A stretch of 48,766 nt of DNA, from the IMG/VR virus record IMGVR_UViG_3300018080_000035, positions 1-48,766 of that record; one strand, 5' to 3'. A model generated the notes under the pieces. The model did not search any database, was not told the origin of the DNA, and saw nothing but the letters and a program-made list of their open reading frames with translations. This document shows positions 1 through 48,766 of this stretch, piece after piece (within the stretch, counting starts at the first letter, position 1; every line of letters begins with the position of its first letter). The DNA is from a virus. Made by a program: the position numbers and the translations under genes.

Positions 1-63
1 TGGAGATATACTGCACAATCCACAGACCGGAGAGAATCTACTGGTTCAGTCTGTCAGCGATAA
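1..63. repeat. Terminal direct repeat, left copy
   Basis: Bases 1-63 are identical to 48704-48766. The repeat lies inside a gene (start 48558, stop 155-157) whose reading frame is continuous across the join. This fits assembly overlap of a circular or circularly permuted molecule. A true 63-bp packaged terminal repeat is possible but less likely, because it sits inside a gene. Confidence 0.95.
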
Positions 64-157
64 GGGCGTGTCCGTTATACGTGGGTATGGCGGATCCAGC
101 AGGGCCGGCTCGATAAAGATGCATGACCGGTTCGTAAACGTAGGGATAGGAGTGTAA
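1..157 (+). CDS. Stand-alone capsid-domain protein, C-terminal part (gene starts at 48558)
   Basis: This is the 3' part of the gene that starts at 48558. The frame begins at base 2 and stops with TAA at 155-157. The joined product is 100 residues. Residues about 35-97 align well with residues 79-142 of the major capsid protein at 6624: both have a G/S-E-T start, then D-[IV]-[LV]-H-N-x-x-T-G-E-N-x-L, a V-x-V-x-R strand pair, a Gly-Gly turn and an A-G-S-x-I segment. It is followed two bases later by the next gene. The role is not known; a capsid-associated (decoration, vertex or assembly) role is inferred only from the shared domain. Confidence 0.85.
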   Translation, partial: GDILHNPQTGENLLVQSVSDKGVSVIRGYGGSSRAGSIKMHDRFVNVGIGV

Positions 158-159
158 AC

Positions 160-516
160 ATGAAACTGCTCAAGGGGTTGGGAGATAAAAAAATCAAGGC
201 TAATGCGGAATACCGCCATCAATGCAGAGAAATTGGAAACAGATACCGGAGCAACATGCCGCTGCTCAAAGGAATCTTGGAACCCCACAAGGCCAACTCC
301 AGCAGGCAGACAACAGCCCGCTTGGAGAAATCGCAAGAATCTTTGGATTTAAGCGAGGAGGCCAAGCGATGGGCTGAGGAACAAGGTTCTCGATTGCGTC
401 AGCATATCGAAATCGAGAACAACATGGCGTATGTGATGACGCCGTTTATGCACCTGAAAATCAGACTCGACGACGAAGGCGAAATGAAATGGCTGAGAAC
501 CCTATTGACAAAGTAG
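160..516 (+). CDS. Unknown protein with MKLLK N-terminus
   Basis: 118 residues; not recognised. It is a highly charged, mainly helical-looking protein with many Arg, Lys and Glu and no cysteine cluster or membrane segment. The ATG has a GGAG seven bases upstream. The protein starts MKLLK, one of eleven in this genome with the MKLL beginning. It overlaps the terminase small subunit by 28 bp, so the two are probably translated together. Its position directly before the terminase genes suggests a late or packaging-related role, but the sequence does not show one. Confidence 0.8.
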   Translation: MKLLKGLGDKKIKANAEYRHQCREIGNRYRSNMPLLKGILEPHKANSSRQTTARLEKSQESLDLSEEAKRWAEEQGSRLRQHIEIENNMAYVMTPFMHLKIRLDDEGEMKWLRTLLTK

Positions 517-1307
517 CGAAGAAACATGGTGTGACCGCTAAGCACATTCACAAGGTTATCACAACAACCAAGTACATGAGTGAGGCCGAAATTGACAAAC
601 ATTACACCGAGGGAAAACTCAAGAAAAAAAAGTCTTCCCAGCGTAGGAATAACAGAGCCAAGAATATGTACAAGCATACGATCAATCAGCCGGTTCCCAA
701 GCCGGCCCATACGACCCACAAGCTGGATGTCGCACAGAAACGAATCCTGGTTGACATCTGTGCCCGGTTTGGCGTAACCCGGAATTCCCGGGATCGCATC
801 TTGACAGAACTCGCAAGGTGTGGTATTCTGATTGCAGACGCCACGCTCTGTTACTACCTGTACAAATCAAAAACGTGGCGGAATAAAATCCTCAAGAGGC
901 GTGAGGAAGTATTTTCCAAGCCCGGAGAGGTTCCCATCTCCATCAAGGGCTACCGCCTTGAGAAACTGCAGGAGATCGTTGAAAACGAGAAAGTGTCGAC
1001 CAGGGAGCGTATATCCGCACTGAAAGAAGCACGGATCGAAATAGAGGCATCGGGAAAGGGCGGTCCTTCCCAGGATACGATTGACGCCCTGCCTCCCGAA
1101 CTGCAGGCACGGCTTCTGGGTAAATGTCGGCAGATCATAGACGCAGAATACGAAGTTTTGCAGGATTCCAAAATTCCACAGGAACCCATCGCCATAGAGG
1201 CTCCACATGAAACTACTGGACAGGATGGAAGCGGCACAGGTGGTATCGGGCAAGAACATGCCGTCAAGGACGGACCTGTTACGTCGCTATTACGAAAAGA
1301 AGAGTAA
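489..1307 (+). CDS. terS: Probable terminase small subunit
   Basis: 272 residues. Terminase small subunits bind phage DNA at the packaging start and hand it to the large subunit. The call rests on the gene lying directly before, and overlapping by 101 bp, the terminase large subunit, and on helix-turn-helix-like stretches (residues about 10-40 and 80-115, around RFGVTRNSRDRILTEL). A Lys/Arg-rich linker lies between them near residues 43-60. The C-terminal half is charged and helical, as expected for oligomerisation. Homology to a named family was not recognised, so another DNA-binding role is possible. A long 3' overlap with terL is typical of phage packaging cassettes. Confidence 0.65.
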   Translation: MAENPIDKVAKKHGVTAKHIHKVITTTKYMSEAEIDKHYTEGKLKKKKSSQRRNNRAKNMYKHTINQPVPKPAHTTHKLDVAQKRILVDICARFGVTRNSRDRILTELARCGILIADATLCYYLYKSKTWRNKILKRREEVFSKPGEVPISIKGYRLEKLQEIVENEKVSTRERISALKEARIEIEASGKGGPSQDTIDALPPELQARLLGKCRQIIDAEYEVLQDSKIPQEPIAIEAPHETTGQDGSGTGGIGQEHAVKDGPVTSLLRKEE

Positions 1308-6623: not shown

Positions 6624-7787
6624 ATGGGTGTCCAGATTACAGGCATGAGGGATACTGCCAATATCCTTCAAGACCGCCGAGAAATGGATTTCACAGGTAT
6701 ACATGACCTGTGGGCAAACCAGACGCCTCTCGCTGCAATCCTGGCCAAGATGAACAAAAAGAGTTCATTCAACTCTGAGTTCACCTGGTTCGAGAGGCAG
6801 CAGATGGCTCGCATCACCCGCATCAACAATGGTGGCGGTTATCCGCTGGGTTCGGAAACGAGTCTGGTTGTGGACGACTCCACCATCTTCGTCGTGAACG
6901 ACGTTGTGCATAACACTCGCACGGGCGAGAACATGCTCATCACGGCAATCAACTATACAACCCATACCCTGACTGTTACCCGTAACCTGGGTGGTGCGGG
7001 TGCTGGATCCGCCATTAACGATAACGACGAAATGCTCGCTATCCACAGCACCTATGCCGAAGGTACGGCATCAGGGACGGCCATCAGCACCAAGGCAGTC
7101 AAGAAATACAACTACACCCAGATTTTCAAGACTGCCATCAAGCTGACCGGGACTGTGAACGCACAGAAACTCCGTGGCGGCGAAGACCTTGAGGATAACC
7201 TCAGGGAAGCAGCCCTGCGGTATTCCACCGACGTTGAGAGAGCACTCCTCTTCGGAAAGCGGAATGAAGACACATCCGGCAGCACCCCGATCCGCCAGAC
7301 CGGTGGCATCACCGATTCAGGCAGTATCGGGATCAGCACCAACGTGACCGACAACTCAGGTGCGTCGATCACGGAAGCACAGTTTCTCGCTCACCTGCGG
7401 CCCCTGTATGAGAATGGCGACAGCGATGTCCGTACATCGTTCTGTCCTCATTTCTTCCTCCAGAAGGTCGGTGGATGGGCTGACTCGAAGGTTCGCATCA
7501 CGCAGTCCGTTACATCTCTGGGTATCGTGATTACGGAGTATGTGTCTCCGTATGGTCGGACCAACCTGATTCCTCACCGGCTCCTGAAGGGTGACATCTA
7601 TGGCTACTATGTCATCTCTCTGGATCTTCCGAGGGTCATGTATCGGTTCCTCCAGGGTCGTGACACCAAGCTGCAGACCAACATCCAGAACAACGACGAG
7701 GACCTGGTCAAGCACCAGTTCATCGGCGAGGTCGGAGGTCAGCTGGTTCACGAAACTCTTCACGGTATTCTGCATAACTGGATTTAA
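6624..7787 (+). CDS. Major capsid protein, SU10/DUF5309 type
   Basis: 387 residues. It forms the HK97-fold icosahedral shell. Order after scaffold, length and general pattern (R-x-x-D-F/T start, R-I-x-x-x-x-G beta section, E-R-A-L-L-x-G-K-R-N at 223-232 followed by a T/S-x-P-x-R-x-x-G-G-I segment, then PYG/H-R and a V-H-E-x-L-H end) fit the DUF5309/SU10 capsid family. Residues about 79-142 form a beta-rich module repeated as a separate protein (gene joining 48558 and 157). The start has GAGG eight bases upstream. A strong hairpin follows the stop. Confidence 0.88.
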   Translation: MGVQITGMRDTANILQDRREMDFTGIHDLWANQTPLAAILAKMNKKSSFNSEFTWFERQQMARITRINNGGGYPLGSETSLVVDDSTIFVVNDVVHNTRTGENMLITAINYTTHTLTVTRNLGGAGAGSAINDNDEMLAIHSTYAEGTASGTAISTKAVKKYNYTQIFKTAIKLTGTVNAQKLRGGEDLEDNLREAALRYSTDVERALLFGKRNEDTSGSTPIRQTGGITDSGSIGISTNVTDNSGASITEAQFLAHLRPLYENGDSDVRTSFCPHFFLQKVGGWADSKVRITQSVTSLGIVITEYVSPYGRTNLIPHRLLKGDIYGYYVISLDLPRVMYRFLQGRDTKLQTNIQNNDEDLVKHQFIGEVGGQLVHETLHGILHNWI

Positions 7788-7853: not shown

Positions 7854-8333
7854 ATGCCTTTATTTCTCTGTCCCAAATATGCCAAGTATAAAATGCTTGT
7901 TCGTCAGGATCCCCCCTATCAAGAGGGTCTCCAGATGATTACCCCTCCTCCGGTATATGCCGAGTTCGAGAACCGGCAGTATTACACGGAAGATGAAAAA
8001 ATCGCTGCGTTTATCCGCAAGACAAATACCTTCAAAAACGGTATTGTTATCGAAGTGGATGACACGGCCTTCAAGGCGAATAAGGATATTCCGCCTGAGA
8101 AAGTTCCGTCCGTTATCGAGGAGGAGAAGAAGCAGGCTGATGCAGAGAAAGCTGCCATAGTGGCCAATACTTGCCGTTATTGTGGTCAGGTTTGCAAGAG
8201 TCCCGCTGGGCTTTCAGCCCATATGAAGAGGTGTAAGAGGAGACCTATTGATGAACCTTCTGCAAATAACGACAAGGATGCTTCAGACAGCGTCGGTGAG
8301 TCTGGATCAGTACGAGCAGAGGATTCTGGCTAG
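7854..8333 (+). CDS. Zinc-finger structural-region protein
   Basis: 159 residues. The middle-to-C-terminal part holds a C2HC-type finger: Cys107, Cys110, His123, Cys127 (CRYCGQVCKSPAGLSAHMKRC). It is preceded by an alpha/beta section and a Lys/Glu helix, and followed by an acidic Ser/Asp tail. The ATG follows AAAGGAGCGA, a ribosome-site form reused in this genome. A finger of similar spacing is found in the genes at 47320 and 47514. Its role after the capsid gene may be head decoration or DNA contact; this is not shown. It overlaps the next gene by 83 bp. Confidence 0.75.
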   Translation: MPLFLCPKYAKYKMLVRQDPPYQEGLQMITPPPVYAEFENRQYYTEDEKIAAFIRKTNTFKNGIVIEVDDTAFKANKDIPPEKVPSVIEEEKKQADAEKAAIVANTCRYCGQVCKSPAGLSAHMKRCKRRPIDEPSANNDKDASDSVGESGSVRAEDSG

Positions 8334-12220: not shown

Positions 12221-15200
12221 TTGGCATCAGAAGTCATAAAAATTGTAGACCCGGACAATGGGCCGGGAACCGACTATTTAAGCCTGCTGGCTTTTGAAGC
12301 CGGTGAACGGCGTGACCTTGTGGCGGCTGATGAGATTGCCGTGGCCGAAGTCCGTTCTTCCGGTACGCCCGACAAGACGAATGAAGTGGATTTCGATTCG
12401 GCCAACTGGACGACCGATTCCACGCGGTACATTCATGTCAGACCGTATGCCGGTCAGGAACATGCCGGTGTATGGGATGCCACCAAGTATGTCAAGCAGC
12501 CCAACAACAACCAGAAGAATATCATATCAGATGTTGATATCAAGATTGAAGGTATTCAGTTTGAAACAGTCACCACGGATACCAAGATACAGGAATCGAT
12601 TGTTCTCGGTGGAAACGTGGCAAATAAGCGTCAGTATCTTAACCGGTGTTTGATACGGTTAAACGAAAGTGGCACGATTGATTCATCACAACAAGCTGTT
12701 TCGCTGGTTGGAACAAACACCACTATTAGAACATATATCACGAACAATATTATTTACGATTGGAAAGACCAGACAGGTACGCATGAACTTCCTGCTTTTG
12801 GACCGACCCATATCTTCAATTACATGTATAACAATACGGTTGTCAACTGCGGAAGCGGCATTGGCAGTCTCAGTAGTCGCAGATACGCTTATAATAATAT
12901 CGTACAGAATACGACAGGCGATAATTATTATGGTGATTTCAATGCAACCTCCTATAACAATCTGTCCGATGATGGTACGGCTCCTGGCAACGACCCGATT
13001 ACCGGAAGCGTACTATTCGTCAATGCGGCGGCGAAAGACTTTCACCTTTCGTTGACGGACACGGTTGCCAAGGGAGCAGGGAGAAGGTCATTCTCACCGG
13101 ACTATGAGAACTTCTATGACGTTGACGGATACCCACGATTCTTTCCGATGGACTGCGGAGCAGACCAGGCCCTTGACAATACGAAGTGGAAGGTGTGGGG
13201 CGGCGGTTCGAGCATGGACGGCAACTTTAATACGGCGACATGCTGGACAGGCGACAGCGTACCGACATCTACGGATTACATCCTGTTCAACGGAACCGAT
13301 GTAACCGACTGCACGATTGACGCTGATGTTGACGTGGGTGGAATGGCTGCTGATTGGAATTATACCGGTACGGTGGACAATTCCGTCAACAACAAGGACA
13401 TCACAATCAGAGGACCGATATCCGTCAAAGGCGACGATGCCGCACCCCATTTTGATTGGGGAGCTAACTGCGATTTCAACTGGACGGGAACATACTGGTT
13501 TGTTGAAAATGCCGACACATGGGTCATGCCGTCTACGGTCAGTCTTGTCATAACCGGTGACGGCTCTACACAACATTTAATGCGGCACACCTATATGACA
13601 TGGAATGAACGGCTTGGACATATCAAGGCTACTGATGCTCCATTGTATCTTGAATACATGAACTCCTGTAACGGTTTGACGCTAAGAAATTCTCCGATAA
13701 CAAGCCCTAATGTTTCGTTGAGTAATTGGGGAGTGCTTGACCAGGATGCGGATAGTCCTATTGATATCGGTACGGCGATTATGAGTCCGGTTTGTGGTGG
13801 CAATCCGACACAGAAAGCCGCTGCGATAAATGCGTCCTATATCAAAGCGTCTGCCGGTAAAGATAACTGGCCTGCTCTGACATGGGAATCTCCATTCGAG
13901 TTTACATGGGGGTGGAGTGAAGAACTGTATCTCGGAGCCGGTGAACATTGGTTCCAGCAGGGTATTCATTACCTGCATAATACGACGACTGCGGGTGAAC
14001 TGGATAATTCCAAATACAATCCGAGTTTTCGCATAGGTGGAACCGGAACCGGCCTTGAGGTGTCGGACGACAATGTAGGCGGCCTTACCGTCACAAAGGG
14101 AACAGGCTCTATCACGATGGACGGTGAGGATCAGTTTATCAAGCTGGACGGCAAGAGCGTTGAGCCGATTGACAACTCAAGCGGCACAGGCACATTCGAG
14201 ATCATGGAGGACGGCACAGCGGATCTCGACCTTGGAGAGAGGACAGATGACATCATCGGAACCGCAGGGATTACCTTCAACTCACCGAACATTGTTGCCA
14301 AAGGACTCGCTCTCGATAACCTCAGAGGATTCAAGAGCGATACGCCTGCTTCGGATTGGACTCTGGTTATTGCCACTTCTTACGACTTTCTGTACCTTGA
14401 TGTTATTGATAACGATGTTACCGGATCATTCGAGATTATTGACGGTGGAAGTTCCTATTGCCGTGACCTGGGGAATAACACTAACTGGACTTTCGATTAC
14501 CTTATCAAGAAGGATGGAACGGCGTTCTACACAACTCTCGCCGCCGCTATTGCCGCTCTGCCAGCTACGCTTATTGCAGATACATCAATCCTCTTCCTTG
14601 ACAGGGAGCGATACGAAGAAGTGAATACGCTGTCCGGTGTGGATACCAACGGATTCACATTGACTATAGACGGCCTTGGAGACGAAGGTGTTCCTGGAAC
14701 CGGCAAGACGACTCTTTATCATGCGACAACAGCCGGATATCTGCTGACTATTACCAGCATGAAGAACGTCACGATAACCGATATCGAGTTTGAGCGAGAG
14801 GAAGCATTGGACGATTCGCGTCATGGCATTGACATTGACGGAAACAACATTGATGAGATTGTGATTGACCGGTGTGACTTCAGGGGTAACGGTTATTATC
14901 CGCAACAGGGTATCTACTGGAACACGAATCAATCTGGTTATGCCGGACATCTGTTTGTTCGTAACTGTCTGTTCCGGCGTTGGGGTAAAGCAGGTATCCA
15001 GTTTGTAAACGGCGGTTCTACATACAACGAAAACTTCACCAGCTACTACAACACCTTTGTCAAGAATCAGGAAGCGATACAGTATGATGGTTCATCTTCC
15101 AACAAGGGATGGGTAAAAGGCAAGAATAATATCTTCGACATGGACGGTGATGAACTCATCGAATGTACCTACTTTGCCGCATGGTATTTTTCGACGAACG

Positions 15201-15960: not shown

Positions 15961-17546
15961 ATATTGATATCTTCAGAGGAATAGACAACAGGCAGATATT
16001 CGCTACCCCGCAGGGGTTTCTGAAGAAGGCGGAGAATGTGCTTATTGACACGACTGGCATGTTGCATAAAATGCCTGGTTGTAAACTGATAAGCACACCT
16101 GATCCAACAGAAGGCAAGCTGAAATACAGTGCTACTGAATTTTTCTATGGCATCGACATGCTCCAGAACCACGACGATTACCAGGATGTGCTTATTGCAT
16201 ACGCTGGACGAAAGAATGCGTCTTTCGATACAGACGAGGTGTTGTTTCCTCATATCTATAACCCTGCATGGACAACTGATGTTGACTGGAAAGGACTCCC
16301 TTGGCCGTCCACAATTCCAGTCTCCTTGAACGCAGGGGTACACGAAGTTCAGTCTCCGCTGTCCTATCTGAAGCGGGCGTACATACTGGCCAATGGATTT
16401 CCGGTCTATTACGACGCACCGAATGAAACATTTGTTGACGGAACCCTTGTCAGTAAGGACTACTTTGATACAGAGCTGGCTGAGGCCATCTCGAACGGAA
16501 CCATTACGGCAGAAGACGCACCGACATATGTGATTCCGAAGGGGGTCTACCTTGAAGAACATCAATCGAGAATGTTCCTGTGCGGAACGGGTAACAGGGC
16601 GAATATGCTCCTCTATACCCAGCCGTTTTCGGATAATTTCTACACCCTCCAAGGTGGTGTTCCGGTGCTCCTTGAGGTATCGGTGGGTCAGGAGGGGAGT
16701 GCGGTCGGCACGGTCAATGACCGCTTGACGGTTTGCAAAGAATGGAGCGAGATCCTCTATATTTTCAAAGAACGCAGTATTCACCGTCTTATAGGCGACC
16801 AACTCGTAAACTACTACACGACGGTTGTAAATAAGACAGTGGGTTGCGACAAGCCCAGAACCCTTATCCGCACCCAGGCTGGGCTCATATTCACCTACAA
16901 GCAGGAGGTATACCTGCTCAACAATACAACCACGAGGATTTCGGATCCTGTGCGGAAGGAACTTACTACGCTTCCGTCCACAGCCGGAGCCTCACTAATG
17001 GATGAACGCTATTACGTCCTGGAGTGGGACGAGAAAACCTTGATCTATGATATACAAACCGGAGCCTGGACAACTTGTACTCATCGCATTACTGGCGATG
17101 ACAATTATATTACAGATGGCACTGATATTATGCGATGGGGTGTCGGACACAAGTGGAAAATCGGTGTGGATAATACAGGCGGCGATAGCATACCTATCTA
17201 TATTGATACTGGCAATTATCGTTATTCGGATGAGATAGTTCCCATGGATATCGTCCTGACGCTGCAGTCAGCGGCCAGGAGCCAGCCTCTCAAGATACGG
17301 ATGGACAACCGTGAACACCGTGTCATGCAAGCTGCGATCAACAGCAGGCCAAGGATCGACCAGGCCTTGCTGGACAGAGATATGATTTATGATTTACCCT
17401 ACGATGTTGTCTATACAGCTCCCCTGGTAAGCGGGAGGAGTATGCGGCTTATCATAGAGCATGATGATGAATATGCCTATCTGCTCAGGGCAATCAACTG
17501 CAGGCTTGAGCCTGTGGACAGGCAAGTTCCAGGAGAAAAAGCATGA
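15957..17546 (+). CDS. Tail nozzle / DNA-stabilisation-type protein
   Basis: 529 residues, GTG start overlapping the previous stop. The N-terminus has the marked pattern 'F-x-G-x-D-N-R-x-x-x-x-P-x-G-F-x-x-x-A-E-N-V-x-x-D-x-x-G-x-x-x-x-x-P-G', as in P22 gp10-like and podovirus nozzle proteins; the rest is beta-rich with propeller-like repeats (EWSEILYIFKERSIHRL near 262-276, then the ALLDRDMIYD region). It would sit under the portal/adaptor and hold the DNA in. Confidence 0.65.
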   Translation: MNIDIFRGIDNRQIFATPQGFLKKAENVLIDTTGMLHKMPGCKLISTPDPTEGKLKYSATEFFYGIDMLQNHDDYQDVLIAYAGRKNASFDTDEVLFPHIYNPAWTTDVDWKGLPWPSTIPVSLNAGVHEVQSPLSYLKRAYILANGFPVYYDAPNETFVDGTLVSKDYFDTELAEAISNGTITAEDAPTYVIPKGVYLEEHQSRMFLCGTGNRANMLLYTQPFSDNFYTLQGGVPVLLEVSVGQEGSAVGTVNDRLTVCKEWSEILYIFKERSIHRLIGDQLVNYYTTVVNKTVGCDKPRTLIRTQAGLIFTYKQEVYLLNNTTTRISDPVRKELTTLPSTAGASLMDERYYVLEWDEKTLIYDIQTGAWTTCTHRITGDDNYITDGTDIMRWGVGHKWKIGVDNTGGDSIPIYIDTGNYRYSDEIVPMDIVLTLQSAARSQPLKIRMDNREHRVMQAAINSRPRIDQALLDRDMIYDLPYDVVYTAPLVSGRSMRLIIEHDDEYAYLLRAINCRLEPVDRQVPGEKA

Positions 17547-39384: not shown

Positions 39385-39568
39385 TATACATCTCCTTCAT
39401 GATATCGTTCACCATATTCTCGAATTTATACAGGATTCTGTCAAAGCTGCCATACATCATGCCAATCTGATATGACAGCCTTGCCACATCGTCCCTCTGG
39501 TTCGGGAACGCTTTCTCCGCTTCTCTCTCGCATTTCTTGTATATCTCTCTGGCGACTTTACTCACCAT
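39275..39568 (-). CDS. Unknown helical protein
   Basis: 97 residues from ATG at 39568 (GGAGAAGCAGTG upstream; start overlaps the previous stop TGA). Begins MVSKVAREIYKKCEREAEKAF. The structured helical part ends near residue 65; the remaining tail lies in the part shared with the next gene and is low-complexity. Confidence 0.6.
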   Translation of the reverse strand: MVSKVAREIYKKCEREAEKAFPNQRDDVARLSYQIGMMYGSFDRILYKFENMVNDIMKEMYNESSGVRELRREAAARTSESRTDAGNKGGLCKDGSG

Positions 39569-40356
39569 CACTGCTTCTCCCTTATGTGAAGGTCGAACGT
39601 AATGGCCGGCGTAATGGCAAGCGAATGCAGAATACGCCACAGCTCGGTTATCTTGACATCCGACAGCGAGAAGGACTTTTCCTTCTTGGGCATCGGAACC
39701 TCGACATCCATGGGATATTGCCATGTGTCTACCCCATCAGGGAAATGTCTGATTGTACCACAGCTTGGACACCATGCCATCTCACCAAACAGAGACATCA
39801 ATGTATTGCAGTGTCTACATGGAGCCTTGATTTGCTGGAGCTGTTTCGCTGGCCTACCCTCGTATTCCAGTTCCGGGTGTCTCTCCAGTTTGTCGATACA
39901 GGTGGGACACTCAACATCATTTTCATTGTTGGTTGTGGCCAGGTCAGCATTGTGACATATGTTTGACCCAAATTTCATCTGTATCTGACACGGAGTTTCA
40001 AAGCTGAAACCATTCCAGAAATGTTTCTTAGTTTTCAAATTGGCCTGCTGTTTGCCTTCGTATTCCAGCTCCGGATTCTTCTCCAGCTTGTCAGTGCAGA
40101 CCGGGCAGGTCACATCCTTCCTGTTGCTTGTTGTGCAATAGCAATCTTTCTCAGCGTAAGCTACCTTACCGCATGGTGTTTTCTTGCTGAATAAGTTCCA
40201 GAAGTGACGAATAGGCTTGCTGTCCGGCTGGTCAGTCTTCTTCTTCGTCTGGCTCTGCGAATGGGTCGCACGTTGAGCAGTTGTCTTTTTCCTCTTTGTC
40301 GTCGTCTTCGACGTCTTTGAGGTCTTCTCTGCCTTCTTCTTTTTCTTCTTCGTCAT
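39568..40356 (-). CDS. Zinc-binding protein with tandem repeated domain
   Basis: 262 residues from the ATG at 40356 (GAGGAGGAAGACAAAG upstream; an earlier ATG six codons before is possible). Lys-rich N-terminal ~45 residues; then the same ~55-residue Cys unit twice (51-102 and 112-167: K/RHFWN-x-F-S, T-P-C, C, V-x-C-P-x-C, D-K-L-E-x-N/H-P-E-L-E-Y-E-G); then a third ribbon C180-x2-C183/C196-x2-C199. Unrecognised family. Confidence 0.75.
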   Translation of the reverse strand: MTKKKKKKAEKTSKTSKTTTKRKKTTAQRATHSQSQTKKKTDQPDSKPIRHFWNLFSKKTPCGKVAYAEKDCYCTTSNRKDVTCPVCTDKLEKNPELEYEGKQQANLKTKKHFWNGFSFETPCQIQMKFGSNICHNADLATTNNENDVECPTCIDKLERHPELEYEGRPAKQLQQIKAPCRHCNTLMSLFGEMAWCPSCGTIRHFPDGVDTWQYPMDVEVPMPKKEKSFSLSDVKITELWRILHSLAITPAITFDLHIREKQ

Positions 40357-40738
40357 CTTTGTCTTCCTCCTCATTGGTTATGCCAAACGTAGTGCGGGCC
40401 AGCCCCACGACTGCCGCTACATCGTTCAGCCCTTTCTCGAATATGGCTTCCTCTATACTATGACCGGATCCTGTCTGCTTGAGCCGTGTCTTCAAGAACG
40501 GCGTGATACGTTCCAATTTCACCAGCTGATCCTTGGTCAGCGTGATCTCCATGTATTCCCTGTAGTCATCACGCATGGAGTCAGCCAGCCTGTCGGCCCG
40601 TCGATCGCCTCTCTTGATGGCCTTCTCGATCTCTTCGCAGCGTTGAATTTCCTGCTTGGATGGCGGCTCTTCAGTCACCATATTCTTTCCCGGCTGTACC
40701 TTGTCCGGGATATCCTTCTTGATATCAGACAGCTTCAT
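40232..40738 (-). CDS. Charged protein with acidic tail (MKLSD start)
   Basis: 168 residues from the ATG at 40738 (GAGGAGAAA upstream), begins MKLSDIKKD, near the MKLL signature. Helical middle (about 30-120), then a very acidic tail (E/D-rich from about 122) that overlaps the Lys-rich start of the next gene by 125 bp. No family recognised. Confidence 0.65.
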   Translation of the reverse strand: MKLSDIKKDIPDKVQPGKNMVTEEPPSKQEIQRCEEIEKAIKRGDRRADRLADSMRDDYREYMEITLTKDQLVKLERITPFLKTRLKQTGSGHSIEEAIFEKGLNDVAAVVGLARTTFGITNEEEDKDDEEEKEEGREDLKDVEDDDKEEKDNCSTCDPFAEPDEEED

Positions 40739-42643: not shown

Positions 42644-42908
42644 TTTTCTCTTCCTCTAATATGGTTTTTTCAAGAACCTCTTCAGGCGAGGCTCCCTTGA
42701 AGTGCATTTTCAGGCTTTTGTACAGTTCATACATATCGCGGTCCATTTCTGAGCCTATGAACGTCTTTGTTGTGTCCGTGGAGCGATATCCCATACCCAC
42801 ATACAGCAATACAAGCCGATATTTTTCAAGCACCGGTGTTGATCCTGTTACTCTTCTTGTTCCATCGTGCAGCTGGCACAATTTAAGTACGTTCTTCAGG
42901 AGCTTCAT
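42624..42908 (-). CDS. Unknown MKLLK protein
   Basis: 94 residues beginning MKLLKNVLKLCQLH; AGGAAG upstream. Helical; has TTKTFIGSEMDRDMYELYKSL. Shares MKLLKN with the gene at 31872. Confidence 0.7.
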   Translation of the reverse strand: MKLLKNVLKLCQLHDGTRRVTGSTPVLEKYRLVLLYVGMGYRSTDTTKTFIGSEMDRDMYELYKSLKMHFKGASPEEVLEKTILEEEKNVQRNQ

Positions 42909-45464: not shown

Positions 45465-45663
45465 TTCACTACCTCCTTGGGCGAGTGCCCGTGTTGTGGT
45501 ATATGCTCCGGTGGCCCTAGCGGGCCGATAACCGGATGGTGAGACATGGTGGGAATTTGGTGGAAGAGGTAATAGCGAGTAGATATAGGGATAAGGGAGG
45601 ATATATAAGCTAATATATAACCCCCCTACCCTTAGAAGGTTAAGCTAGCTAACTATATATTAC

Positions 45664-45773
45664 CCTAGATAAATTTGTGATACTTTATATATCCTAGTTT
45701 ACTCTAGATAATCCTAGATAATCCTAGATAAACTAGATAATCTAGTGGGTTTATTTCATAACCCAAGATAATC
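45664..45773. repeat. CTAGATAA iteron array
   Basis: CTAGATAATC-type 10-mers at 45665 (8-mer), 45704, 45714, 45724, 45733 (with 10-bp spacing for the first three) and a degenerate copy at 45764; further copies at 45859 and (TAGATAA) near 45878. Helical phasing suggests protein binding along one DNA face. Confidence 0.75.
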
Positions 45774-45815
45774 TAATATAATTTTTATTATTTTATTATT
45801 ATTTTATTATTATTC
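45774..45815. other. A+T-only tract, possible DNA-unwinding element
   Basis: A long (TTATTATT)-type run of A and T only, between the iterons and the dyad. Such tracts often mark where origin DNA opens. Confidence 0.4.
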
Positions 45816-45820
45816 ATAAC

Positions 45821-45853
45821 CCAATATATCCCTGGTTAACCAGGTTATATTGG
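45821..45853. repeat. 33-bp dyad with 14-bp palindrome
   Basis: CCTGGTTAACCAGG is a perfect palindrome (45831-45844), flanked by CCAATATA and TATATTGG arms. It may bind a dimeric protein or form a hairpin. Confidence 0.75.
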
Positions 45854-45931
45854 ATATACTAGATAAACTAGGTTATATAGATAAGGAAATATTGTTCCAA
45901 TACGGGGAAAGAAATTTATTTTTTTCTCGTA

Positions 45932-46515: not shown

Positions 46516-46770
46516 ATGAAATTACTCAAAGAGATAATCGAGTCGTTTGACACAATCACCCTGGACAATGTGGGGCAGGATGCAGGTCGTATCCTTGGCC
46601 ACTTGATTCGCATAATCGGGTCTGCCCAGGACCCTGACGGACACTGGGATTATAATGGTCTTGTGCGAGATGTGCTTGGTTCCAATGACCGCCAGTGGCA
46701 GAAATATAGCCCTTCCGAGCACAGGAAGTTCCTGAATATGCTGCTCTATATTCTTAGGGAGCCATCGTGA
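46516..46770 (+). CDS. Unknown MKLLK protein
   Basis: 84 residues beginning MKLLKEIIESFD, mostly helical, with W-D-Y-N-G-L-V-R-D-V and H-R-K-F-L-N-M-L-L-Y-I-L. The only weak ribosome site is GCCGGGG about 13 bases upstream. First gene after the leader RNA; overlaps the next by four bases. Confidence 0.7.
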   Translation: MKLLKEIIESFDTITLDNVGQDAGRILGHLIRIIGSAQDPDGHWDYNGLVRDVLGSNDRQWQKYSPSEHRKFLNMLLYILREPS

Positions 46771-47318
46771 AATTACTCGATATAGGCCAGAATACTCTTC
46801 CGAACCCCATACCGGAAGGGTCTTCGGAGAACAACAACGATACACACAGGTTCTACGGAGACCAACGCCGGTTCATCATGGATAATTTCGACTGGGTCTC
46901 TTCCTGGCTCTCAGAAAGGCTTCGGCCCTGCCTCAATCCGGAGGTGACCTGGCGTTACAAAATCGGTGAGAAGAACGGCACGGATATCATACGGCAGGAA
47001 CACAACTACTGCCAGATATTCAAACGGACTTTCAACGGGCCTGCCGTGGACGAGGATTTCGAGTATGAGCATTGGCTTGATATTCTCCAGTGTTCCGTAT
47101 TCGGGAGACGGGAGAAGAAGCTGGTGAGTGGGGTGCCATGCAGAACCATGGGCGGTTTCCTGGAATTCACCGGGCGTCTCCCGACGGAAAAGGACGAGAT
47201 TGAGATGTACTGCTTCACAGGCCGGTATCTCAGAATGACGCATCCGCGTTTTGGAAGGTTTCAGGCCGGTCCCAGTTTTATCCTATCCGAGTGTTGCGTA
47301 AAACCACTGGTGTACTGA
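46767..47318 (+). CDS. Unknown MKLLD protein, GTG start
   Basis: 183 residues, GTG start (AGGGAG upstream) overlapping the previous stop in GTGA. MKLLDIGQNT, then an acidic loop and an alpha/beta body with W-V-S-S-W-L-S-E-R-L-R-P and a Cys-rich end (S-E-C-C-V-K). No family recognised. Confidence 0.7.
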   Translation: MKLLDIGQNTLPNPIPEGSSENNNDTHRFYGDQRRFIMDNFDWVSSWLSERLRPCLNPEVTWRYKIGEKNGTDIIRQEHNYCQIFKRTFNGPAVDEDFEYEHWLDILQCSVFGRREKKLVSGVPCRTMGGFLEFTGRLPTEKDEIEMYCFTGRYLRMTHPRFGRFQAGPSFILSECCVKPLVY

Positions 47319-47319
47319 C

Positions 47320-47514
47320 ATGAAACTGCTTGACGAAGTTTTTATTCCAATCAGCGAACGCCGCTCCAGAGAACCGGGCTCCGCCAGCAGATTTAAGTGT
47401 GAAATCTGCAAAGAGGGTTTCGCTTCCAGGGCCGGCCTGAAAATGCACATGCGGCACAAACACAGCGGCCAGTGGCTTTCAGCGTCCATCATAAAGCTCT
47501 TAGGGAGAAAATAA
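47320..47514 (+). CDS. C2H2 zinc-finger protein (MKLLD start)
   Basis: 64 residues. MKLLDEVFIPISERR at the start is similar to MKLLDKIFIPYNDR at 48558. Then one C2H2 finger: C27-x2-C30-x12-H43-x4-H48 (CEICKEGFASRAGLKMHMRHKH). A very small DNA- or protein-binding factor. Confidence 0.75.
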   Translation: MKLLDEVFIPISERRSREPGSASRFKCEICKEGFASRAGLKMHMRHKHSGQWLSASIIKLLGRK

Positions 47515-47774
47515 TGGTGTTCATTCACAAAGACAAGAAGCGGGGCCGCATCATGGGACAGAAAATAGCCCGTACCCCGGAGGAAGCGGTGGAAATCCTG
47601 ATGAAGGATGTCACAAACCCCATCATGGAGAAATATCGCTGTCCGATTTGCAAGACGGATTGGGTCGGAACCAGGACATTCCTGACCCATTTCACGACAG
47701 AGCACCCGAAGAATGCCGAAGGCATCTTTTCGATCAATCCCAACGCCTATCAGGAGTGGGTGGTGTACGATTGA
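47514..47774 (+). CDS. C2H2-type zinc-finger protein
   Basis: 86 residues from the ATG at 47514 (AGGGAG upstream; TAATG overlap with the previous stop). Finger C43-x2-C46-x12-H59-x4-H64 (CPICKTDWVGTRTFLTHF-x4-H pattern). Basic N-terminus. Its spacing equals that of the finger before it, suggesting duplication. Confidence 0.7.
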   Translation: MVFIHKDKKRGRIMGQKIARTPEEAVEILMKDVTNPIMEKYRCPICKTDWVGTRTFLTHFTTEHPKNAEGIFSINPNAYQEWVVYD

Positions 47775-47971
47775 AGGCTCTCCGGTGGGTAGAAAAGATC
47801 AAATATGAACAGGATAAAGCGAAAATAGGCAAGCAGTTTGGATTCAAGGGCGTTGATCACTCTGCCTTGGTAGAGCCGACTATCGAAGTCGAAGAGAAAT
47901 GGACCCCGGGTGGCATTATCAAGGTGGCGAAGCCCTCTGATATCACCCTGCTGGACATTACAAACACATGA
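47771..47971 (+). CDS. Small MKAL protein, TTG start
   Basis: 66 residues. TTG overlaps the previous stop (TTGA), like the TTG gene at 2652. Begins MKALRWVEKIKYEQDKAKIG, then a beta-like acidic half. Unrecognised. Confidence 0.6.
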   Translation: MKALRWVEKIKYEQDKAKIGKQFGFKGVDHSALVEPTIEVEEKWTPGGIIKVAKPSDITLLDITNT

Positions 47972-48561
47972 AATGGCCTACAGCAGAAATAATTTACGTT
48001 CTCGGGACCAGCGATGACATCAATTCGCTGGACACCGGCTTTTTCAAAGACAATCTGACTATCGGTATCAACCAGACCATGCCCGTCGTGGAAAAAACCG
48101 GTGAGCAGTTGACATATTGGGTCTGCGTGGACGCATTCAAGCAGTTTTATGAGTTTCTCGTCCGGGATACGTCCCCTGACACCATCAAACTGGTGGTGGA
48201 CGAGTACGCCGATACGACCCTGCTGGCGAATCTGGCCGGATTGGTGCGGAATAAGGATTCCGTCCGTACCTACATGCATGTTTACGACATCGGAGTCTCC
48301 TGTTGCCTGGAACCGGTCATTCTGGGCTGCCAGAGGTTCTCTATCCTCTGTGCGATCGCATTGGCTGCCGGTCTCAGGCCGAGAGAGATCCGGCTCAGGG
48401 GCGTTTCCCTGGGTGGTGGTTACTGCAACACCGAGAGAGGGCCAAATGCGAACGAGTATTACGACGAAATTGCGAATCACCTGCGTGGTCTTCAGCCTTT
48501 TCTGGCCGAAGACGGGATCAAACTGATTAACGATACCGAGAACACGGATTTCTTGAAATGA
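47968..48561 (+). CDS. Rossmann-like DUF115/sialyltransferase-type protein
   Basis: 197 residues, ATGA overlap. IIYVLGTSDDINSLD (about 8-22), TIGINQT (31-37), Y-W-V-C-V-D (50-55) and a middle helix-strand S-I-L-C-A-I-A-L-A-A-G-L-R-P-R-E-I-R-L-R-G (about 125-145) match the DUF115/glycosyltransferase-29-like layout 'G-x-x-x-S/D-I-N, x-I-G-I-N'. Pairs with the protein at 2744. Substrate unknown. Confidence 0.55.
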   Translation: MKWPTAEIIYVLGTSDDINSLDTGFFKDNLTIGINQTMPVVEKTGEQLTYWVCVDAFKQFYEFLVRDTSPDTIKLVVDEYADTTLLANLAGLVRNKDSVRTYMHVYDIGVSCCLEPVILGCQRFSILCAIALAAGLRPREIRLRGVSLGGGYCNTERGPNANEYYDEIANHLRGLQPFLAEDGIKLINDTENTDFLK

Positions 48562-48766
48562 AGCTGCTGGATAAAATCTTTATCCCGTACAATGACAGGG
48601 TGGATGCCTTCAAGTTTGAAGAGGATGCTCTGGTTCCGGCCGATTGCGTCTGTTCCGGTGTCGCCGGCGAGACAGAAATCAGGCTCAGTGGCGATTACGA
48701 TGTTGGAGATATACTGCACAATCCACAGACCGGAGAGAATCTACTGGTTCAGTCTGTCAGCGATAA
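48558..48766 (+). CDS. Stand-alone capsid-domain protein, N-terminal part (continues at base 1)
   Basis: Starts MKLLDKIFIPYNDR, overlapping the previous stop (ATGA); runs off the window and continues at base 64 after the repeat, ending at 157. Full product 100 residues: a leader like that of the zinc-finger protein at 47320, a short Cys-containing linker (C30, C32), then the capsid-like beta domain (35-97). See the entry at 1-157 for the domain comparison. Confidence 0.85.
   Translation, partial: MKLLDKIFIPYNDRVDAFKFEEDALVPADCVCSGVAGETEIRLSGDYDVGDILHNPQTGENLLVQSVSD
48704..48766. repeat. Terminal direct repeat, right copy
   Basis: Exact copy of bases 1-63. Joining the ends restores one uninterrupted 100-codon reading frame. 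Confidence 0.95.

Follow-up and report, generated by a model that had tools for sequence, protein, structure and literature searches.

The DNA analyzed here, termed the window, is 48,766 nt in length and displays an identical 63-bp direct repeat at its two ends, i.e. positions 48704–48766 are the same as positions 1–63. Because the end repeat is exact, the contig is circular and an open reading frame reads through the join. The window is a single circular phage genome of 48,703 bp that is cut within a small gene, here termed SA (stand-alone ORF). SA and the genes around it are as follows.

48558–48703 joined to 1–157, plus strand: SA, 100 aa, with a frame that is open through the join
48558–48766, plus strand: first part of SA, residues 1–69, which reaches the contig end
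1–157, plus strand: second part of SA, with residues 50–100 at 2–154 and the stop codon at 155–157
47968–48561, plus strand: 197 aa protein directly upstream of SA; a homologue adjoins terL in locus L018 (32% identity, E-value = 1e-25)
160–516, plus strand: 118 aa protein that starts with MKLLK, directly downstream of SA
489–1307, plus strand: probable small terminase subunit (terS), judged by its position just upstream of terL and by a homologue before terL in L018
1207–2655, plus strand: large terminase subunit (terL), which starts with MKLLD (phrog_38, E-value = 3e-74)

SA is an intact open reading frame directly ahead of terS and terL and is on the same strand as the head genes. The plus-strand row runs from SA through the 118 aa gene, the probable terS and terL to the portal, scaffold-like and major capsid protein (MCP) genes. 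The start of SA overlaps the stop codon of the upstream gene (ATGA). SA uses codons in the manner of the structural genes, with a value of 0.21 per codon, and the other frames give negative values with the exception of one antisense frame (0.22).

The MCP gene and the part of it that is related to SA are located at:

6624–7787, plus strand: MCP, 387 aa, HK97 fold, SU10_MCP family (PF17236, Pfam E-value = 1.7e-36)
6849–7049, plus strand: MCP residues 76–142, a beta-domain inserted in the E-loop; this is the SA-related part

The AlphaFold (AF2) model of the MCP, built from 62 relatives, has a mean pLDDT of 84.6. Over residues 71–142 the pLDDT is about 90–95 for the most part and 83 in the block at 121–130, and the strands of the insert are modeled at positions 80–83, 93–97, 103–110, 115–119 and 136–142. 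The closest PDB match is 9in6, the MCP of Vibrio cholerae phage VP1 (E-value = 3e-32, and 1.1e-97 by profile). The profile aligns with SU10 itself (7z45) only in the part downstream of the insert segment, which is consistent with an E-loop insertion found in a subset of the SU10-type family. The MCP inserts also match tail-fiber and virion-protein PHROGs, e.g. phrog_8469, which is matched by 13 of the 62 MCPs (best E-value = 3e-6), and similar generic modules are present in tail-type proteins at L033:940–3045 and L036:19823–21055. On account of these homologous modules the insert domain is taken to be part of a wider virion beta-module.

Homology of SA to the E-loop insert beta-domain of its own phage's SU10-type MCP is well supported. 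Amino acid positions 37–98 of SA match positions 79–142 of the MCP, and the similarity crosses the join (SA residues 46–93). Blast aligns SA 49–96 with MCP 91–140 (E-value = 7e-7); the score of SA against its own MCP is 79, and the best of 2000 shuffled sequences reaches 58. A family HMM made without SA matches SA at positions 33–97 (1e-8). The similarity spans all five core strands. Two insert residues, E102 and R120 (MCP numbering), are conserved at 95% or more across the family, and SA retains both. The sequence-only reading had aligned SA to MCP 79–142, and Blast, HMM, HHalign and shuffles all bear this out. That reading had also named profile comparison as the check on which the relation could fail. 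The similarity found by profile is significant: HHalign gives a probability of 96.5% (E-value = 1e-9, SA 18–97), and an HMM of the insert only (MCP segment 76–145) scores 36.8 bits with none of 2000 shuffles equal to it (best 6.8). A further module, which was thought to be present in the protein encoded at 17543, is not established: the insert HMM gives it 9.2 bits (3 of 2000 shuffles), but the HHalign probability is just 7.8%. Its score against SA is reached by 144 of 2000 shuffles and is borderline.

When the insert HMM was run over 23,156 ORFs from 153 loci, the matches were the MCPs, SA (3.8e-9) and, weakly, a single generic module of tail type (0.002), and these E-values, as others from small searches, apply to the searches in which they were obtained. 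In the same search the insert profile scores SA at 36.5 bits, whereas generic modules reach 18.2 bits against it. SA shows no match to profiles of other MCP segments. Residues 1–36 look promising by eye when placed against the E-loop strand of the MCP, however 258 of 2000 shuffles do as well and the similarity is not significant. SA matches no Pfam family and no PHROG at E-values up to 1. By profile similarity it belongs with the MCP E-loop insert domains; it is not a full SU10_MCP protein, since it has 100 aa, the insert segment only and no match to PF17236, and with neither a Pfam nor a PHROG match it does not fall in a known decoration family.

A second gene with an MCP segment, p183, came to notice as a match of the L018 MCP when L018 was compared with the window.

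46767–47318, plus strand: p183, 183 aa, which starts with VKLLD and carries about MCP positions 157–233; found with the MCP HMM, the P-segment HMM and HHalign
46995–47171, plus strand: residues 77–135 of p183, homologous to about MCP positions 160–233 (HNYCQIFK ... FGRR ... RTMGG)

The MCP HMM scores p183 at 22.8 bits, where the best of 3000 shuffles is 3.8, and the P-segment HMM scores it at 30.1 bits with none of 2000 shuffles equal to it. The HHalign probability is 95.3%. Over the 23,156 ORFs the P-segment profile finds solely the MCPs and p183 (5.8e-7). About 15–24 residues in the middle of the MCP segment are absent from p183. Four columns of the alignment are invariant (N, Q, I and G), and p183 retains each of them. 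The flanks of p183 on both the N-terminal and C-terminal sides look promising by eye against the MCP, however they do not beat shuffles. The AF2 model of p183 is poor (pLDDT 55) and has no match in the PDB. SA and p183 represent neighboring, non-overlapping segments of the MCP in genes that are 1.2 kb apart, with the order of the segments reversed.

Nine open reading frames of the window, SA among them, begin with [M/V]KLL[D/K/E]: those at 160, 1207 (terL), 46516, 46767, 47320 and 48558 on the plus strand and those at 42908, 39140 and 34649 on the minus strand. Related loci have 18 [M/V]KLL starts in 2.09 Mb, and the rate in this genome is about 20 times as high. As the leucine and lysine codons of the nine starts vary synonymously, conservation seems to be of the peptide and not of the DNA. 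An MKLLD leader had earlier been ascribed to SA; it is present, but is not specific to the SA module as it is common to the nine genes. An N-terminus that resembles that of SA is found in a zinc-finger gene:

47320–47514, plus strand: C2H2 zinc-finger protein of 64 aa; its first ten residues, MKLLDEVFIP, resemble MKLLDKIFIP of SA

C2H2-like zinc fingers are found in three small proteins, encoded at 47320–47514, 47514–47774 and 7854–8333. The last of these adjoins the MCP gene directly downstream.

With regard to origin, the proposal that SA was duplicated from the capsid gene stands as far as homology is concerned, while recent copying from the MCP as it is now is unlikely and duplication is one option among others. 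SA has the family-consensus G where its own MCP has H141, and RG where the MCP has R120-N121; p183 has the family H where its own MCP and the nearest relatives have Y. Since both keep consensus residues no longer found in the MCP of this phage, they are unlikely to be recent copies of it. At the DNA level SA shows no meaningful similarity to its own MCP gene, and a recent copy was rejected as its source. SA scores slightly higher against the MCPs of L017, L020 and L084 than against its own, and in the scores of p183 its own MCP ranks 40th of 140. In the tree SA is placed beside its own MCP, weakly (85/42) and on a long branch; branch lengths are 2.5–2.8 for SA and p183, and the pieces are too short for trees to decide on origin. 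Either an old duplication or a capture from a related phage would fit.

A different case is present in L030, where a 104 aa open reading frame (14014–14328, plus strand) has 36 residues that are 53% identical to positions 224–259 of its own phage's MCP. Forty-five nt are 95.6% identical to the DNA of that MCP gene, and this is therefore a short recent MCP copy.

Relatives of SA and p183 were sought in several collections. A pattern scan of IMG/VR shows no close relatives of either, and tblastn in phages gives weak non-significant matches, the best for SA being an MCP. SA was not found in plasmids. In 47 whole contigs the two queries match MCP ORFs and no stand-alone copies; the profile over 50 contigs finds MCPs, a short ORF in G057 and, in G068, a piece of an MCP that wraps around, again with no stand-alone SA or p183, and a scan of genome contigs finds one distant MCP. 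The collections searched may omit records very near the window, thus restriction to this lineage is not proven by these results. The short ORF in G057 (L156, G057:C1:18344–18460, minus strand) is an 83 aa frame close to a contig end. It contains a stretch like the N-terminus of the MCP, PLTKLIYKTRMKIDDPKFTWWNK, and the match is weak, with an E-value of 2e-4 for one genome.

The most likely reading, which is put forward tentatively, is that SA and p183 are small late capsid-accessory proteins made of MCP pieces. SA would be a free-standing E-loop insert beta-domain behind the N-terminus MKLL[D/K/E] that is common in this genome. It most likely folds alone in the manner of the MCP insert and would be expressed with the late genes. 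It may bind MCP subunits or capsomers, taking the surface on which the E-loop insert of a neighboring subunit would otherwise sit, and may act as a minor decoration protein or as an assembly modulator; p183 is probably one of the same group of accessory proteins derived from the MCP. This reading is favored because SA is an E-loop domain, and the E-loop of HK97-fold capsids spans neighboring subunits (PMC10276861), and because its gene is among the head genes. Chance retention of one module is less likely, since p183 nearby carries the adjoining non-overlapping MCP segment. Pieces that lack the rest of the HK97 fold may however fail to bind the capsid. Also, SA may not need to act on the head, because the insert belongs to a beta-module that is found in tail fibers and other virion proteins as well.

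Compared with the insert of SU10-type MCPs (PF17236; solved in VP1, 9in6), SA is alike in sequence over the whole domain and keeps the E and the R, but it is a free-standing protein of 100 aa without the HK97 P and A domains and has a different N-terminus. Small size and a late head-gene neighborhood are shared with decoration and cement proteins, e.g. Soc, Hoc, lambda gpD and the N4 Ig-like decoration protein. Unlike these, SA, a candidate virion protein, matches no family and is related to the MCP E-loop itself. Ig-like domains are precedents for a fold that is found both fused to the MCP and apart from it. Paralogy of the MCP within one genome, to which SA and p183 can be likened, is present in T4, where gp24 (the vertex-type protein) and gp23 are MCP paralogues. 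However gp24 is a full HK97-fold protein, and SA and p183 are single segments.

An explanation of a different kind, which is unlikely, is that SA and/or p183 are decoys or poisons in conflicts. They would either engage a host defence that senses the MCP and leave it inactive, or be built into the capsids of a competing phage with a related MCP and block them. The family-consensus residues that the own MCP has lost point in this direction, and the scores of both proteins against other MCPs equal or exceed those against the MCP of their phage, as expected if foreign MCPs are mimicked. There are precedents. Tab of phage JBD26 is a small late-operon protein (83 residues), encoded between Pseudomonas prophage terminase genes, which acts on virion assembly by blocking tail assembly of invading phages (PMC10884400). 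SA is likewise small and beside terminase genes. Tab has, according to its authors, no sequence similarity to proteins of known function (PMC10884400), whereas SA is MCP-related. As to MCP-sensing defences, freshly synthesized MCP sets off CapRel-SJ46, and Lit is activated by the Gol peptide, a part of T4 gp23 (PMC9712102). However, binding of a mimic to a sensor may itself set the sensor off, and if the mimic were made late together with the MCP, the phage's own assembly would be at risk.

It is improbable that SA and p183 are fading, non-functional remnants left by the breakup of an MCP gene that had been duplicated or captured. The splitting of adjacent MCP segments over two genes would be accounted for, as would the high divergence, the absence from the relatives searched and the poor p183 model, and the reversed segment order suggests rearrangement. 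Both frames are however intact at about 25%–30% identity to MCPs, where neutral frames so diverged should hold stop codons. The most conserved residues are kept, and the two genes overlap or abut their neighbors tightly and carry the recurrent MKLL start. The least probable explanation is that SA is an instance of the general mobile virion beta-module, as in tail fibers, and is functionally unrelated to the capsid; the PHROG matches of the MCP inserts and the modules in L033 and L036 agree with this, but SA itself has no PHROG match and is a much closer fit to the MCP inserts than the generic modules are, and p183 is left unexplained.

A bolder reading, which is doubtful, is that an MCP has been dismembered into separate small proteins, i.e. 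the SA insert and the p183 P-domain segment, each with an MKLL tag. These would act in trans, either regulating capsid assembly or serving as decoys toward competing phages or defences that sense the MCP. If true, phages reuse parts of the shell protein as separate proteins. SA and p183 would then offer a simple system for how the E-loop holds the capsid and for MCP pieces as assembly regulators or decoys. To our knowledge a class of MCP-fragment proteins has not been described so far, and the MCP domains we know of are otherwise fused in capsids or seen as unrelated decoration folds.

Two other features of the window may be mentioned. The open reading frames at 39568–39978 and 40001–40374 (minus strand) are neighbors and have a common segment of about 35 residues (5e-11). 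The 45600–45900 region is AT-rich, with CTAGATAA-type repeats between divergent gene blocks, and adjoins promoter-like sites; it is possibly a regulatory or origin region.
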